Assembly (NCBI GenBank): GCA_024742485.1
Contig: JANSYK010000003.1
Coordinates: 558,001 to 622,000 of the forward strand
Source: Alphaproteobacteria bacterium
GTDB lineage: Bacteria; Pseudomonadota; Alphaproteobacteria; Rhizobiales; Rhizobiaceae
Direction: 5' to 3'
Length of the DNA stretch: 64,000 nt
Position numbers and translations under genes: made by a program. Under the pieces are notes generated by a model. The model made no database searches and was not told the DNA's origin. It saw only the letters and a program-made list of their open reading frames with translations. Shown in pieces: positions 59,027-64,000 of the stretch (position 1 is the stretch's first letter; each line of letters starts with the position of its first letter).

Positions 59027-59293
59027 ATGGCACGCTTTGAAATACTGGACCAACAAATGGCAACGATCGGCGGAGACGCCGAAGCAGATATTTTCTGCGA
59101 GATGGGCCTCATGTATGCCGCCGGACGTGATTGTCCGCTGGACTATGTGGCAGCCCATAAATGGCTGAACATTGCGGCTATCAAGGGATCCGAACGGGCC
59201 GCTGAATTGCGCGCCGACCTGGCCCAGAGCATGACGAAATCCGACCTGGCATCGGCGCTGCGTTCGGCACGTGAATGGATGACCGTACACTAA
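59027..59293 (+). CDS. short Sel1-repeat-like protein
   Basis: 88 residues. The central segment, FCEMGLMYAAGRDCPLDYVAAHKWLNIAAIKGSERA (about 23-58), is one Sel1/TPR-like helical repeat, with the alternating Ala/Gly/Leu pattern. No signal peptide, so cytoplasmic. Similar short proteins are common in rhizobia. It lies 168 bp upstream of a porin on the same strand, separated by a hairpin, and may be its own transcription unit. Confidence 0.72.
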   Translation: MARFEILDQQMATIGGDAEADIFCEMGLMYAAGRDCPLDYVAAHKWLNIAAIKGSERAAELRADLAQSMTKSDLASALRSAREWMTVH

Positions 59294-59354: not shown

Positions 59355-59391
59355 CCGGAAGGCCGATCACATTGTTCGGCCGGCGTTCCGG
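59355..59391 (+). terminator. hairpin between Sel1-like and porin genes
   Basis: CCGGAA-GGCCGA pairs with TCGGCC and TTCCGG, separated by GGCG on the right side, around a 9-base loop. CTTCGATTTT follows. It could terminate the Sel1-like transcript or be part of the porin leader. Confidence 0.4.
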
Positions 59392-59444
59392 CTTCGATTT
59401 TCAGCGCGGAACTTGCAACCACAGCTTGAGCACCTCCCGTCATA

Positions 59445-60577
59445 TGACTGGAGGTCAGAAAATGAACATTAAGAGCCTTCTTCTCGGCTCCGCTGCAGCG
59501 ATGGTTGCAGTTTCTGGTGCTTCCGCAGCCGATGCGATTATCGCTGCAGAGCCAGAGCCAGTAGAATATGTACGCGTCTGTGACGCATTCGGTAGCGGAT
59601 ATTTCTATATCCCTGGTACCGAAACCTGCCTGCGCATCAGCGGTAACGTCCGCTTCCGCCTGGGCTTCGAGGAAACAATCGCTGCAGATGCAGCAAATGG
59701 CGTGCTTGCGAGAGACTCTTATGACACTGCAACACGTGCTCGTGTTCAGGTCAGCGCAAAGTCCGACACCGAATGGGGCGAACTGCACTCCTACATTCGT
59801 CTGCAGGCTGAAAACTCGTCCACGGCTAATACTGCTGCCTTCAATATGGACCAGGGTTACATCGAAATTGCCGGCCTGCATGTCGGTTATGACGATTCAG
59901 CTTGGGCATACTCCACGAATGGTGGCCTGTCCGGTTACGGTGCTCACGGTATCTTCGGCGGTAACTACGGTTTCACCAAGTCGAACATGATCCAGTATCA
60001 GTTCGGTGGTGGCAACTGGTTCGGCGCGATCTCACTTGAAGATGATGGCGTTATGACCACTTATACCCCGGATGTTATCGGCCGTTTGGGCGGTGTTGTT
60101 GGCGGTATCACTGTGTTCGCAGTTGTCGCTTATGACGAAGCCAACGCGGTTGGTACAAGCGAATGGGCCGCAAAGCTCGCCTTGAACGCGGACATCGGAG
60201 CCAACGGCAACCTTCGCGTACAGGGTTTCTATGCTTCCGGTGCAACTCGTTTCGGCGCGAACACCAGTAATGGGTTTGCTACACCTGGAACATCCATAAC
60301 CTATACTCCAGAGTGGTCGATCCTGGGTTCCTACCAGCATCAGTTCACTCCTGAAGTTGCGGTCTATGTCGCTGGTCAGTGGTTCTCCGACTTCTACAGC
60401 TCTGCAACAGGCGCACAGACCGGTCTTGATGGATGGCGCGCTTCTGGTGGTATCAGCTGGGATCCGGTCGACAACCTGAACTTTGGTGTTGCGATCAACT
60501 ACTTCGATCTCGACGCACCGGTTAACGCTGGTAACGGCGACTGGAGAGTCATCGCTGAAATGGTTCGCAGCTTCTAA
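59445..60577 (+). repeat. porin-bearing inverted repeat, left copy
   Basis: From TGACTGGAGGTCAG at 59445 to the porin stop, this segment matches the reverse complement of 62813-63936. Homology starts sharply 17 bp before the start codon, while the sequences further upstream differ. The first 200 bases are nearly identical; later parts alternate between near-identical blocks and short divergent blocks. Confidence 0.85.
59462..60577 (+). CDS. Omp2/RopA-type outer-membrane porin, copy A
   Basis: 371 residues from ATG 59462, preceded by GGAGGTCAG. A signal peptide (about 1-22, ending SGASAAD) is followed by VEYVRVCDAFGSGYFYIPGTETCLRISG, the N-terminal signature of Hyphomicrobiales porins, and the protein ends in Phe (AEMVRSF), as outer-membrane beta-barrels do. 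Two cysteines at 40 and 56 may pair. It forms water-filled pores for small hydrophilic solutes. The protein is about 86% identical by hand count to the porin on the opposite strand at 62813-63919. It is followed by a strong terminator and a tyrosine recombinase gene. Confidence 0.95.
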   Translation: MNIKSLLLGSAAAMVAVSGASAADAIIAAEPEPVEYVRVCDAFGSGYFYIPGTETCLRISGNVRFRLGFEETIAADAANGVLARDSYDTATRARVQVSAKSDTEWGELHSYIRLQAENSSTANTAAFNMDQGYIEIAGLHVGYDDSAWAYSTNGGLSGYGAHGIFGGNYGFTKSNMIQYQFGGGNWFGAISLEDDGVMTTYTPDVIGRLGGVVGGITVFAVVAYDEANAVGTSEWAAKLALNADIGANGNLRVQGFYASGATRFGANTSNGFATPGTSITYTPEWSILGSYQHQFTPEVAVYVAGQWFSDFYSSATGAQTGLDGWRASGGISWDPVDNLNFGVAINYFDLDAPVNAGNGDWRVIAEMVRSF

Positions 60578-60624
60578 GCTGGGCCATTCCTGCGGCACGG
60601 AAGTATCAGCCGGAAAAATCTTGG

Positions 60625-60657
60625 AACGCCCGGTTGTGGAATGCTGCCGGGCGTTTT
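60625..60657 (+). terminator. intrinsic terminator of porin A
   Basis: AACGCCCGG and CCGGGCGTT form a perfect 9-bp stem around 13 bases, merging into TTTT. It lies 48 bp after the porin stop and separates the porin from the recombinase gene. Confidence 0.82.
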
Positions 60658-60769
60658 GCTTTGAAGAGGTGACACAACCAGAACGTATATCAACGATAAG
60701 TGCAACCATTCCAATGTGTGGAACCGGAACAATTCGGACACCATCGGTTGCACGGATGTGTGGGGCATC

Positions 60770-61603
60770 ATGACAGACAATCTTATTGAACTTTGGGAAA
60801 ACTACGGTGATCTTCTGTGGGAGGACGGCAAGCACAAGGAGGCATGTCGTGCCTATGTTGACGAAATCCACCGCTACATGCTGATCAGCAAACACCGAAG
60901 CTACGACAATGCGCTTCTGGACGGGCTGACGATCCATTTTCGGCAAAAGGGCAACAGAAATTCGACCATCAATCGGAAATTTGCAAGCCTTTCCAAGATC
61001 TTGCGGAAACACCAGAGAAATGGCGGGCTGGCCAATTTACCAGACTTCAGCAAACTGCCGGAGCGGAATGGGCGCATACGCTATCTGACGCATCAGGAAG
61101 AACAATCCCTGCTTGAACGGTTGGAACCTGAAAGCCACCACTACGCTCAGCTATCGCGCTTCCTGGCGGAAACGGGCGCACGGATTGGCGAAGCGCTTCA
61201 ACTCAATTGGGTTGATATTGTCTCAGACCACGTGACGTTCTGGGAGACGAAATCACATCGTCCGCGCACCATTCCATTGAGTTTGAGGGCTCAAAAGGTG
61301 ATCGAGCGACAGCGCATGATGGTTGCCGACAAATCAGGACCGTTCCGAAATGTCGCCTATGCCAAATTCCGCAAAGGATGGAACAACGCCAAGGACGGAA
61401 CCGAAATGCGTGATGATCCACAGGTGGTGCCCCATGTCCTGCGCCATACCTGTGCATCCCGCCTGGCTCAGGCTGGTGTCGACATCAAACGCATCCAGGA
61501 GTTCCTGGGCCACAGGACCCTTTCGATGACGCTGCGATACGCACATTTGTCGCCCAAGCATCTGAATGTTTGCGCTGAGGCGCTCAATGGATTGAGGAAC
61601 TGA
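60770..61603 (+). CDS. tyrosine recombinase/integrase, copy A
   Basis: 277 residues from ATG 60770 (MTDNLIELW), aligned with the start of the opposing copy. The N-terminal core-binding domain (about 1-105) includes NSTINRKFASLSKILRKH. The catalytic domain has every residue of the family: Arg138 (GARIGEAL), Lys161 (ETKSHRPRT), His222 and Arg225 (HVLRH), His248 (LGHRT) and the nucleophile Tyr257 (RYAHLS). It should therefore be active. It lies after a porin terminator, with no other phage or transposon gene nearby. Its mirror partner at 61801-62634 is about 79% identical by hand count. Target sites unknown. Confidence 0.92.
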   Translation: MTDNLIELWENYGDLLWEDGKHKEACRAYVDEIHRYMLISKHRSYDNALLDGLTIHFRQKGNRNSTINRKFASLSKILRKHQRNGGLANLPDFSKLPERNGRIRYLTHQEEQSLLERLEPESHHYAQLSRFLAETGARIGEALQLNWVDIVSDHVTFWETKSHRPRTIPLSLRAQKVIERQRMMVADKSGPFRNVAYAKFRKGWNNAKDGTEMRDDPQVVPHVLRHTCASRLAQAGVDIKRIQEFLGHRTLSMTLRYAHLSPKHLNVCAEALNGLRN

Positions 61604-61800
61604 TCCGCTGCAAATGGTTGGTCACAAAGCCGCCTTCTCTGCGCCGAAATCTCAACGCTGGTTATCCGTGATCGTATGTTCTTTTCGCCTCTGCAAAGTA
61701 TGGATTACGAAAAACCAAGCCAAAACAGAGCCTTGGGAAAAAGCTGCAGCCGGGATACCCAACGCCAGTGGGCGAGGGAGAGCAGCCTGAGATTGATCGG

Positions 61801-62634
61801 TCAATGTTTCATCTTGTCCAGAACATCTGCACACACATCGAGATGTTTCGGTGAAAGATGCGCATAACGCAGTGTCATCGCAAGGGTTCGATGACCGAGA
61901 AATTCCTGAATGCGTTTGATGTCGACGCCAGCCTGAGCCAGGCGGGAGGCACAGGTATGGCGCAGGACATGGGGAACCACCTGTGGATCATCACGCATTT
62001 CGGTTCTGTCCTTGGCATTGTTCCATCCCTTGCGAAACCGGTAATATGCGACATTTCGAAAGGGGCCGGGCTTCATGGCCAGTTGCTGACGCTGCACTTC
62101 AATCACCTTGATAGCGCGTTGGCTGAGGGGAATCGTCCGTGGTCTGTTGGATTTGGTTTCCCAGAAGGTGACGTGCCGCGGGCCAATATCTGACCAGTTC
62201 AAATGCAGTGCTTCGCCGATGCGGGCACCTGATTCGGCCAGGAATCGGGACAGCTGTGCGTAGTGATGGTTTTCCTCTTCGAGGTGGCGTAGCAATTGCT
62301 GTTCTTCCTCGATGGTCAGAAAGCGGATACGGGCATTGCGTTCCGGCAATTTCTGAAAGTCCGGAAGCGTTGCCAGTCCACCATTGCGGTGGTGCTTCCG
62401 TAAAATCTTGGAAAGACTCGCAAATTTCCGGTTGATGGTTGAGTTCTTGTTGCCCTTTTGGCGAAAGTGGATTGTCAGCCCATCCAGAAGTGCATTGTCA
62501 AAATTCGTGTGGTCGTTCACCAGCATATAGTGGTGGATTTCGTCCACATAGGTTCTGCAGGCTTCCCTGTGTTTTCCGTTTTCCCACAGAAGGTCGGCAT
62601 ATTGCCCCCAGAGGTCCAGAAGGGGTTGTGGCAT
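61801..62634 (-). CDS. tyrosine recombinase/integrase, copy B
   Basis: 277 residues, same length and start as copy A (MPQPLLDLW). All catalytic residues are intact: Arg in GARIGEAL, Lys in ETKSNRPRT, HVLRH, LGHRT and Tyr in RYAHLS, at the same positions as in copy A. Differences are scattered, with most in the first 45 residues and about 103-123. It converges on copy A with a 197-bp gap and follows porin B on the minus strand. The two recombinases are diverged enough to be old duplicates, both kept functional. Role inferred from family. Confidence 0.92.
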   Translation of the reverse strand: MPQPLLDLWGQYADLLWENGKHREACRTYVDEIHHYMLVNDHTNFDNALLDGLTIHFRQKGNKNSTINRKFASLSKILRKHHRNGGLATLPDFQKLPERNARIRFLTIEEEQQLLRHLEEENHHYAQLSRFLAESGARIGEALHLNWSDIGPRHVTFWETKSNRPRTIPLSQRAIKVIEVQRQQLAMKPGPFRNVAYYRFRKGWNNAKDRTEMRDDPQVVPHVLRHTCASRLAQAGVDIKRIQEFLGHRTLAMTLRYAHLSPKHLDVCADVLDKMKH

Positions 62635-62730
62635 GTTGAGTGTCCCATAACAAAATAACTATTGAGTCAGCAGGACCACACTCCATGGCTGATTGTTTTG
62701 ACGGAATTCTCCGCATTGTTTCCCCCATAG

Positions 62731-62766
62731 AAAAGGGCGCCTGGTGAAACAATCCACCAAGCGCCC
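62731..62766 (-). terminator. intrinsic terminator of porin B
   Basis: On the minus strand GGGCGCTTGGTG pairs with CACCAGGCGCCC over 12 bp with one G-T pair, loop GATTGTTT, then TTTT. It lies 46 bp after the porin stop. Its sequence is unrelated to the porin A terminator, so homology ends at the stop codon. Confidence 0.85.
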
Positions 62767-62812
62767 CCAATTTTGGCAGCAGCTTTAAGGCTGCTACAGA
62801 ACAATCCGTAGC

Positions 62813-63919
62813 TTAGAAGCTGCGAACCATTTCCGCGATGACTCTCCAGTCGCCGTTACCGGTGTTAACCGGAGCGTCGAGATCGAAGTAGTTGATCGCA
62901 ACACCGAAGTTCAGGTTGTCAACCGGATCCCAGCTGATACCACCGGAAGCGCGCCATCCGTCAGCACCGGTCTGAACGTTACCGGCTGATGTGTAGAAGT
63001 CAGAGAACCACTGACCAGCTACGTAGAGAGCGACTTCAGGAGTGAACTGATGCTGGTAAGAACCCAGAACCGACCACTCAGCTGTGTAGGTTGCACCACC
63101 GGTGATCGGTGTGTTGTTTGCACCGAAGCGGGTTGCACCGGAAGCGTAGAAACCTTGCAGGCGAAGGTTGCCATTGGCGCCGATGTCGGCGTTCAGGCCG
63201 AGCTTTGCAGCCCATTCGCTACCGAAGCCAGCGCCGGCGCTACCCTGTTCGTCATAGGCTACAACACCGAATACAGTGATACCGCCAACAACACCGCCCA
63301 AGCGACCGATGATGTCAGGAGTGTAGCTGGTCATAACGCCATCATCTTCAAGAGAGATTGCGCCGAACCAGTTGCCACCGCCGAACTGATACTGGATCAT
63401 GTTCGATTTGGTGAAACCGTAGTTACCACCGAAGATGCCGTGAGCACCGTAACCTGACAGGCCACCATTCGTGGAGTATGCCCAAGCTGAATCGTCATAA
63501 CCGACATGCAGGCCGGCAATTTCGATGTAGCCCTGGTCCATGCCGAAGGTTGCGCCCTGGGCCATGGAAGAGTTTTCAGCTTGCAGACGAATGTAGGAGT
63601 GCAGTTCACCCCATTCGGTGTCGGACTTTGCGCTGACCTGAACACGAGCACGTGTTGCAGTGTCATATGAATCCTTTGCAGCAGCTGCGGGAGGAGAAAC
63701 TTCTTCTTCCTCGAAGCCCAAGCGGAAGCGGACGTTACCGCTGATGCGCAGGCAAGTTTCGGTACCAGGGATATAAAAATATCCGCTACCGAATGCGTCA
63801 CAGACGCGGACATATTCTACTGGCTCTGGCTCTGCAGCGATAATCGCATCGGCTGCGGAAGCACCAGAAACTGCAACCATCGCTGCAGCGGAGCCGAGAA
63901 GAAGGCTCTTAATGTTCAT
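62813..63919 (-). CDS. Omp2/RopA-type outer-membrane porin, copy B
   Basis: 368 residues from the Met at 63919, with the same GGAGGTCAG ribosome-binding site and an identical first 71 residues, including the signal peptide, as copy A. The beta-strand blocks are nearly identical, while short blocks at about 72-82, 119-126, 225-236, 270-285 and 310-320 differ in sequence and length. It ends in AEMVRSF. The pattern suggests gene conversion of the framework with diversification of loops. Convergent with copy A, it is followed by its own terminator and recombinase. Confidence 0.95.
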   Translation of the reverse strand: MNIKSLLLGSAAAMVAVSGASAADAIIAAEPEPVEYVRVCDAFGSGYFYIPGTETCLRISGNVRFRLGFEEEEVSPPAAAAKDSYDTATRARVQVSAKSDTEWGELHSYIRLQAENSSMAQGATFGMDQGYIEIAGLHVGYDDSAWAYSTNGGLSGYGAHGIFGGNYGFTKSNMIQYQFGGGNWFGAISLEDDGVMTSYTPDIIGRLGGVVGGITVFGVVAYDEQGSAGAGFGSEWAAKLGLNADIGANGNLRLQGFYASGATRFGANNTPITGGATYTAEWSVLGSYQHQFTPEVALYVAGQWFSDFYTSAGNVQTGADGWRASGGISWDPVDNLNFGVAINYFDLDAPVNTGNGDWRVIAEMVRSF

Positions 63920-63936
63920 TTTCTGACCTCCAGTCA
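62813..63936 (-). repeat. porin-bearing inverted repeat, right copy
   Basis: Reverse-complement partner of 59445-60577. The homology edge is again at TGACTGG, 17 bp before the start codon (63936 on the plus strand). The sequence between the two copies (60578-62812) holds both recombinase genes in mirror order, so recombination between the copies would invert that segment. Confidence 0.85.
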
Positions 63937-64000
63937 ATTTTCTAAAATGGTCTGGGCAAAAGCTTTTGACGGCGTTCCCTGTCCCATCCCCAACTAAAGA

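Follow-up and report, generated by a model that had tools for sequence, protein, structure and literature searches.

The region described here lies at the right end of a 64,000-nucleotide stretch of DNA (hereafter the window) from the 6.87-Mb genome of an alphaproteobacterium of the family Rhizobiaceae (assembly GCA_024742485.1, contig JANSYK010000003.1; G000:C120:558001-622000 in the present numbering). It consists of two porin genes in opposite orientation, porA and porB, with two tyrosine recombinase genes, rec1 and rec2, between them, in the order porA> rec1> <rec2 <porB (Table 1). This order, with both recombinases intact, had been given in a preliminary description of the window and was confirmed. 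In Pfam searches, the porins matched Porin_2 and the recombinases matched Phage_integrase (92-93 bits against a cut-off of 27), assigning the latter to the tyrosine recombinase superfamily. Residues R138, K161, H222, R225, H248 and Y257, which we take to be the expected catalytic residues of tyrosine recombinases, are invariant in six recombinases of the genus. No further gene was seen between the two porins, mechanical antisense open reading frames (ORFs) aside. The two porins share 87% amino acid (aa) identity by tblastn and 90% in an alignment, with 86.5% DNA identity over 1150 columns, and the two recombinases are 79% identical (tblastn).

The sharp porin match from 17 bp before the start codon, also reported earlier, was found again and extends at its far end to 3 bp past the stop codon. 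This inverted homology is tightest at the porin 5' ends, where it reaches 98% over 230 bp. The first 13 of the 17 bases preceding each ATG form a dyad, TGACTGGAGGTCA, with the structure TGAC-TGGAG-GTCA, that contains the Shine-Dalgarno sequence. Exact copies of TGACTGGAGGTCA occur in only two places in the window, both of them ends of the inverted repeat, and a longer pattern comprising the site and the start codon is present once per strand in the whole genome. The site of the window folds no better than shuffles (z -0.45). A search of five loci with Rfam at gathering cut-offs returned tRNAs only, and PADLOC assigned no family to three proteins.

Table 1. Genes, proposed sites and other features of the porin-recombinase locus, in positions of the window
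Feature	Positions	Strand	Basis
porA, Porin_2 porin, 371 aa	59462-60577	+	ORF list, Pfam
rec1, tyrosine recombinase, 277 aa, catalytic residues intact	60770-61603	+	Pfam Phage_integrase
rec2, tyrosine recombinase, 277 aa, catalytic residues intact	61801-62634	-	Pfam Phage_integrase
porB, Porin_2 porin, 368 aa	62813-63919	-	ORF list, Pfam
Proposed recombination site TGACTGGAGGTCA, left copy, overlapping the porA Shine-Dalgarno sequence	59445-59457	+	exact match, edge of inverted repeat, junctions in relatives
Proposed recombination site TGACTGGAGGTCA, right copy, overlapping the porB Shine-Dalgarno sequence	63924-63936	-	exact match, edge of inverted repeat
98% inverted repeat, left arm (site and porin 5' end)	59445-59674	+	pair I5
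98% inverted repeat, right arm	63707-63936	-	pair I5
Type-1 (conserved) leader before porB, GGGGATGGGACAGGGAACGC ... GCCCAGACC ..., continuing past the window end	63937-64000	-	by eye and rough rule
Type-2 (unconserved) leader before porA	59380-59444	+	rough rule
Terminator-like hairpin with T run, between porA and rec1	60626-60656	+	read by eye
Terminator-like hairpin with T run, between porB and rec2	62735-62766	-	read by eye
Small flanking ORF, flank marker outside the proposed machinery	59027-59293	+	beside the locus in six loci of the genus, including that of the window

Within the genus, the recombinase family was present in four of eight genomes. One of these (G007) carries the same four-gene mirror as the window, and two (G002 and G003) have the layout por> rec> <por. 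Among the other genomes, G006 has three tandem porins without a recombinase, G001 a single matching porin and G005 two matches, both at contig ends, and G004 gave no porin match at 1e-30 to the porin of the window; despite this, G004 holds two copies of the site pattern. In the four mirror loci, inverted homology starts 16-23 bp before the ATG and stops no more than 3 bases from the stop codon. All six loci of the genus with covered flanks have an AMP nucleosidase gene and the small flanking ORF next to the porins, and five have a DUF2147 gene, so that the position of the locus appears to be old in the genus, the only one in which neighbours were compared. The small ORF is 78-89% identical in the five other loci and had no Pfam match. 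A tree of 14 recombinase rows paired the two copies by genome with moderate support (84/80 for G000 and 90/94 for G007), and with this pairing duplication history and concerted evolution are not separable. In two genomes of the genus, G001 (L017:3166-5261, contig C22) and G003 (L021:2744-4803, contig C10), a different tyrosine recombinase, about 22% identical, lies divergently upstream of a porin and within 400 bp of it, possibly a second porin-linked recombinase family.

The analysis was extended to the bacterial family using a search profile built from the six recombinases and one genome per species; these genomes are related, so the counts do not represent independent events. At E 1e-60, this profile detected the recombinase family in 134 of 394 genomes and 44 of 109 genera, both lower bounds because full scoring was limited to six candidates per genome. 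The DNA examined covered 134 loci, 130 from outside the genus and one from each of four genomes within it. The adjacency of porin and recombinase proved to be kept in these relatives, the nearest upstream match being a porin on the same strand in 123 of the 134 loci, at a distance of 155-1112 bp (median 472 bp between profile boundaries). The 11 loci without an upstream porin match include eight at contig ends and one (L053) in which the recombinase is split by a stop codon and preceded by a porin, the two real exceptions being L060 and L123. This linkage supports the recombinase family as a partner of porins. The enzyme shows profile similarity to phage integrases (PHROG 1), and its best sequence matches among solved structures are integrases, including HP1 integrase, as might be expected if it were the remnant of an ordinary prophage or integrative element inserted by chance beside a porin. 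Such an origin is contradicted by the linkage found in a sample of 44 genera and is very improbable; moreover, no other element genes were seen beside the recombinase in the window, and in two species of the genus a pair of recombinases flanks opposite porins. Scores against the XerC and XerD equivalog models (68-79 bits, NCBIfam cut-offs 330-335) and the integron IntI-type integrase models (61-64 bits, cut-off 265) were far below threshold.

The commonest layout in the survey was <por por> rec> (71 loci), followed by por> rec> alone (29) and por> rec> <por (8); the double-recombinase mirror was found in 2 loci and the recombinase alone in 7, with rarer forms making up the rest. Two opposite sites were present in 94 of the 134 loci, in a divergent arrangement upstream of the recombinase in 81 and convergent in 13. 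In the divergent loci, the intergenic DNA measured 0.6-1.4 kb in 80 of 81 cases and the sites were less than 1 kb apart in 69. A second site 3' of the recombinase was found in 18 of 134 loci (up to 3 mismatches) against 14 in one shuffle, giving no general signal, and exact copies there were limited to two loci, L089 and L123. Outside the family the recombinase is rare: an order-wide search gave 13 of 397 genomes at E 1e-50 or better, nine of them in the same family, and among the four others only G453 was high-scoring; its 3.8-kb locus holds a porin match that is weak (84 bits) and lacks any site at up to 2 mismatches.

The fullest form of the site reads TTCTGAC-TGGAG-GTCAGAA. Of 89 opposite-strand porin pairs, 87 had identical sequence in the 16 bp preceding the start codon, with positions 17-40 matching at only 7.8 of 24 on average; one of the two non-identical pairs (L013) differs by spacing. 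The six same-strand neighbours within the surveyed loci matched at 4-13 of 16 leader bases. Beyond the site, the two leaders of a pair differ in their conservation. One of them, here called type-1, is conserved across 30 genera (identity of 0.80 over 80 bp), whereas the other, type-2, gave an identity between genera of 0.58 against 0.58 for shuffled sequences. One type-1 leader per pair was found in 87 of 95 scored loci: 59 loci have it before the distal porin, 18 before the proximal porin and 10 in a convergent arrangement. The other 8 were ambiguous, among them the locus of the window (score 11 against 10), in which the conserved leader was placed before porB by eye. A type-1-like leader was also seen by eye before at least one porin in most of ten recombinase-free tandem loci, which suggests an ancestral role as the main porin leader; it probably comprises the main porin promoter and 5' untranslated region.

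Relative to the recombinase, the intersite DNA is found in opposite orientations in different species of the same genus in 8 of the 21 genera with at least two divergent loci. Eight pairs of loci, one per genus, were aligned over their whole length; the outer flanks were collinear in all eight, and the plus-strand matches stopped and resumed within 6 bp of the sites. Specifically, in the comparison of L153 with L158, the left match ran through the final base of the site core in both loci, and the right match began with the first base of that core. In one of the eight genera (g51) a short internal repeat also yields mixed-strand matches, yet the leader state differs there too. For the type of layout present in the window, a block inversion was seen in Sinorhizobium meliloti Ak57 (CP090106.1, labelled pSymB, 3.7 Mb), in which a block of porin, recombinase and porin is inverted with respect to Sinorhizobium sp. 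K101, the inner block aligning in plus and both flanks in minus orientation. Strains M103 and C101 agree with K101, and five g46 loci stand in the same inverted relation to Ak57. Among K101, M103 and C101, which are 99.9-100% identical, no strain-level inversion was found, all three having the same orientation. From these comparisons, inversion between two opposite porins has occurred repeatedly in nature.

Two further observations were made at these loci. In the loci of K101, M103 and C101 (L241, L242 and L243, respectively), two strains have a split porin match, M103 in the copy behind the type-2 leader and C101 in the copy behind the type-1 leader, reflecting either sequencing error or selection against a porin. 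The intergenic DNA of L146, L147, L163 and L165 contains a segment of about 139 bp with 97-99% identity that is found in either orientation in different species of one genus, within less similar surroundings, and is perhaps a small mobile repeat.

Comparison with plasmid-borne copies shows a second kind of rearrangement, insertion. In Ak57, an additional porin and recombinase have been inserted, separating the conserved leader from the next porin. Over 2334 bp, this 2.3-kb cassette (L238:3647-5977) shares 98.8% identity with one carried by pSymA of strain R28 (CP130049.1), and its edges coincide with the site itself. The pSymA junctions read TGTCT/GGAGGTCA on the left and TGACT/AGCAGTCA on the right, which places the crossover in the shared CT within the site. 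Plasmid cassettes of 2.23-2.32 kb were found in eight records from S. meliloti, S. medicae, Ensifer adhaerens, E. canadensis and Pseudorhizobium flavum, and five of them, when compared, had no detectable similarity in the 1000 bp left of the site. Judged by these edges, cassettes have been inserted exactly at the site. The Sinorhizobium/Ensifer plasmid cassettes end in an imperfect palindrome (fold of -7.7 kcal/mol and z -3.6 in L244), seen in six of them and at one Ak57 recombinase. A search with the same pattern, reaching 600 bp from the recombinase, found no palindromic end in the 134 surveyed loci, and the pattern did not match the two P. flavum cassettes. The right-end palindrome lies at L244:5939-5971 and is also present in L238, L239, L246, L261, L262 and L264; it recalls integron attC sites. 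In P. flavum YW14, two plasmids each carry a cassette at the same long palindrome (L247:5846-5895 and L248:5846-5895).

The presence of the recombinase was also associated with the strands on which the sites lie. In recombinase genomes, site copies were on both strands in 104 cases, at least two copies were on one strand only in 1 and fewer than two copies were found in 29, whereas recombinase-free genomes had 16 with copies on both strands and 34 with at least two on one strand only (Fisher p 7e-21, a value that ignores kinship and treats the arbitrary strands of different contigs as given). The 16 recombinase-free genomes with copies on both strands comprise eight without a linked pair in these assemblies and eight with a linked inverted pair, four of the latter still carrying broken recombinase remnants. 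Ten of the 34 one-strand genomes were fetched, and all had linked tandem pairs.

The inversions might have arisen by RecA-type homologous recombination between the inverted porin 5' ends, which would also homogenise the genes, with the recombinase being incidental. Many pairs do have 97-100% identical 5' ends, and synonymous identity over the first 62 codons was higher between copies within a genome than between species in 16 of 19 genera, compared with 11 of 19 over the remainder of the gene. Since several recombinase-free tandem pairs have raised 5' identity as well, this supports exchange in general rather than exchange by this enzyme. A precedent exists in Brucella, where the related porins omp2a and omp2b lie in opposite orientation about 830 bp apart and are 82-100% alike, omp2b being the sole copy shown to be expressed; the copies recombine, their variation is explained by extensive gene conversion, and the word recombinase does not occur (term count 0) in the available portion of PMC7050475. 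The locus of the window resembles this pair in having two related opposite porins and, probably, recombination between copies, and departs from the omp2 type (opposite porins less than about 1 kb apart) in having 2.2 kb and two recombinases between the porins. Homologous recombination does not readily account for plasmid cassettes with edges at the site and flanks in which no porin homology was seen, for the tracking of inverted rather than same-strand pairs by the recombinase, or for pairs with about 80% 5' identity that keep an identical 16-bp leader end (as tandem pairs do too). As an explanation it is unlikely.

Site-specific recombination serving porin choice is, in our assessment, the likely role of the locus. 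Comparison between loci shows five elements of such a system: recombinase-porin linkage, repeated inversion among species edged by the site, one block inversion, insertion of a cassette precisely at the site and usually one conserved leader per pair. Each recombinase would recognise the dyad TTCTGAC-TGGAG-GTCAGAA over the porin ribosome-binding site, and recombination between two inverted sites would flip the intervening DNA. With the exchange point at this site, the invertible unit in the window would be the whole 4.5-kb block (59445-63936), whose inversion would exchange the leaders between intact porins, and in the commonest layout of its relatives it would be the intergenic DNA. In either layout, the type-1 leader would pass from one intact porin to the other. 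Recombination of a free or plasmid-borne porin-recombinase cassette with a site would insert a new porin directly behind the type-1 leader. This recombinase is the presumed catalyst of the exchanges, the type-1 leader would drive expression with the other copy poorly expressed, and switching may occur within a culture and be useful, for example against phages with a porin receptor. The dedicated porin-variation system proposed in the preliminary description is thus largely upheld by the linkage and by the inversions in relatives, with the exchange moved to the ribosome-binding site. The suggestion that the inner 2.2 kb inverts, swapping porin 3' halves with the promoters left in place, is not supported, since the breakpoints of relatives lie at the 5' site and leaders would be exchanged between intact porins instead.

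Several findings weigh against site-specific switching. The conservation of the motif alone is no proof of a recombination site: the pattern of site and start codon is present in 305 of 394 genomes, many without the recombinase, and in tandem pairs lacking a recombinase 14-16 of the 16 leader bases agree in 10 of 11 cases (drawn from ten fetched loci with listed coordinates, with two pairs from L016 and no usable one from L220), so that the motif may serve translation. The 16-bp conserved leader end was for this reason rejected as sole proof. Four of the eight linked inverted pairs in recombinase-free genomes had no recombinase match at 1e-20. An empty pSymA target was sought in PLSDB, where 10 records match the joined flanks; none has one place covering 80% of them, and no uninterrupted site was thereby shown. 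Of the 81 divergent loci, 5 could not be scored; in the remaining 76, the conserved leader stood before the distal porin 58 times and before the proximal one 18 times, and 11 of the 21 genera showed a single leader state and 2 were unscorable, which suggests that switching is biased or slow. Loci with the layout por> rec(s) <por were collinear in 17 of 17 within-genus comparisons (three genera, with 6 comparisons from the genus of the window). One fixed orientation in all reads and strains had been named beforehand as an argument against variation; a single orientation was seen in the genus of the window, in all four recombinase-bearing species, but both orientations occur in 8 of 21 genera and between Ak57 and K101. 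No flip of the block of the window itself was seen in these comparisons, and its inversion is inferred.

The single leader state, seen in 11 of 19 scorable genera, would also fit a porin-recombinase pair that is mainly a selfish mobile cassette integrating at porin leaders, with inversions as by-products and no adaptive switching; the 2.2-2.3-kb cassettes on plasmids and the recombinase remnants in four genomes agree with this. Retention of the recombinase beside porins across 44 genera, nearly always with an open reading frame, and the opposite porin pairs often having a single conserved leader suggest host use instead, and a search of the surveyed loci for the right-end palindrome of the mobile cassettes found none. 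A purely selfish cassette is accordingly a possible but doubtful explanation, and a clearly less favoured one than a system for porin choice.

Phase variation by invertible promoters under tyrosine recombinases is known for Bacteroides surface genes and for fim of E. coli. The loci described here have in common with these systems the short inverted sites, the linked tyrosine recombinase, the occurrence of both orientations in nature and the surface protein as a target. The differences are that the site lies over a ribosome-binding site, that a single conserved leader is contested by two porins, that porin and recombinase move together as a cassette, and that layouts suited to flipping a promoter or a gene block both exist. 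In integrons, cassettes are inserted in a promoter-proximal position at a short core site by a tyrosine recombinase. Promoter-proximal insertion at a short site and the imperfect palindrome ending the Sinorhizobium/Ensifer cassettes are reminiscent of this, whereas each cassette here carries its own recombinase, the IntI models scored far below their cut-off, and the palindrome did not turn up in the 134 surveyed loci. In Agrobacterium, the available part of PMC10132094 describes a phage-resistant clone in which the porin genes ropA1 and ropA2 had recombined and phage adsorption was lost, and gives RopA1 as a phage receptor in S. meliloti. The likeness is in neighbouring homologous porins whose recombination goes with loss of phage adsorption; unlike in the window, a deletion fused ropA1 and ropA2 in frame, which in our reading implies a tandem layout, and that part of the article describes no recombinase at the locus. 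Recombinase-linked porin inversion in rhizobia was not found among the matches listed, by title and opening of the abstract, in the open-licence PMC literature, and the portion of PMC5903667 at hand, on genome-wide inversion detection, has no occurrence of rhizobi, porin or Brucella.

The chances seem evenly balanced that the Rhizobiaceae possess a dedicated porin-exchange system. In such a system, self-mobile 2.3-kb cassettes, each consisting of a porin and its own recombinase and attaching at the ribosome-binding site, would move between plasmids and a single expression site in the chromosome, where the porin produced would depend on inversion and insertion. Loci such as Brucella omp2a/omp2b, an inverted pair with one copy expressed, may on this view descend from ones that had the recombinase and lost it. 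A recombination site placed over a ribosome-binding site would be an unusual design. Such porins are phage receptors and solute gates, so that, if the proposal is true, a large group of plant-associated bacteria would be programmed to switch porin receptors. The proposal would also give many opposite porin pairs a common origin, and why such pairs exist becomes a question that can be answered by polymerase chain reaction and long reads.

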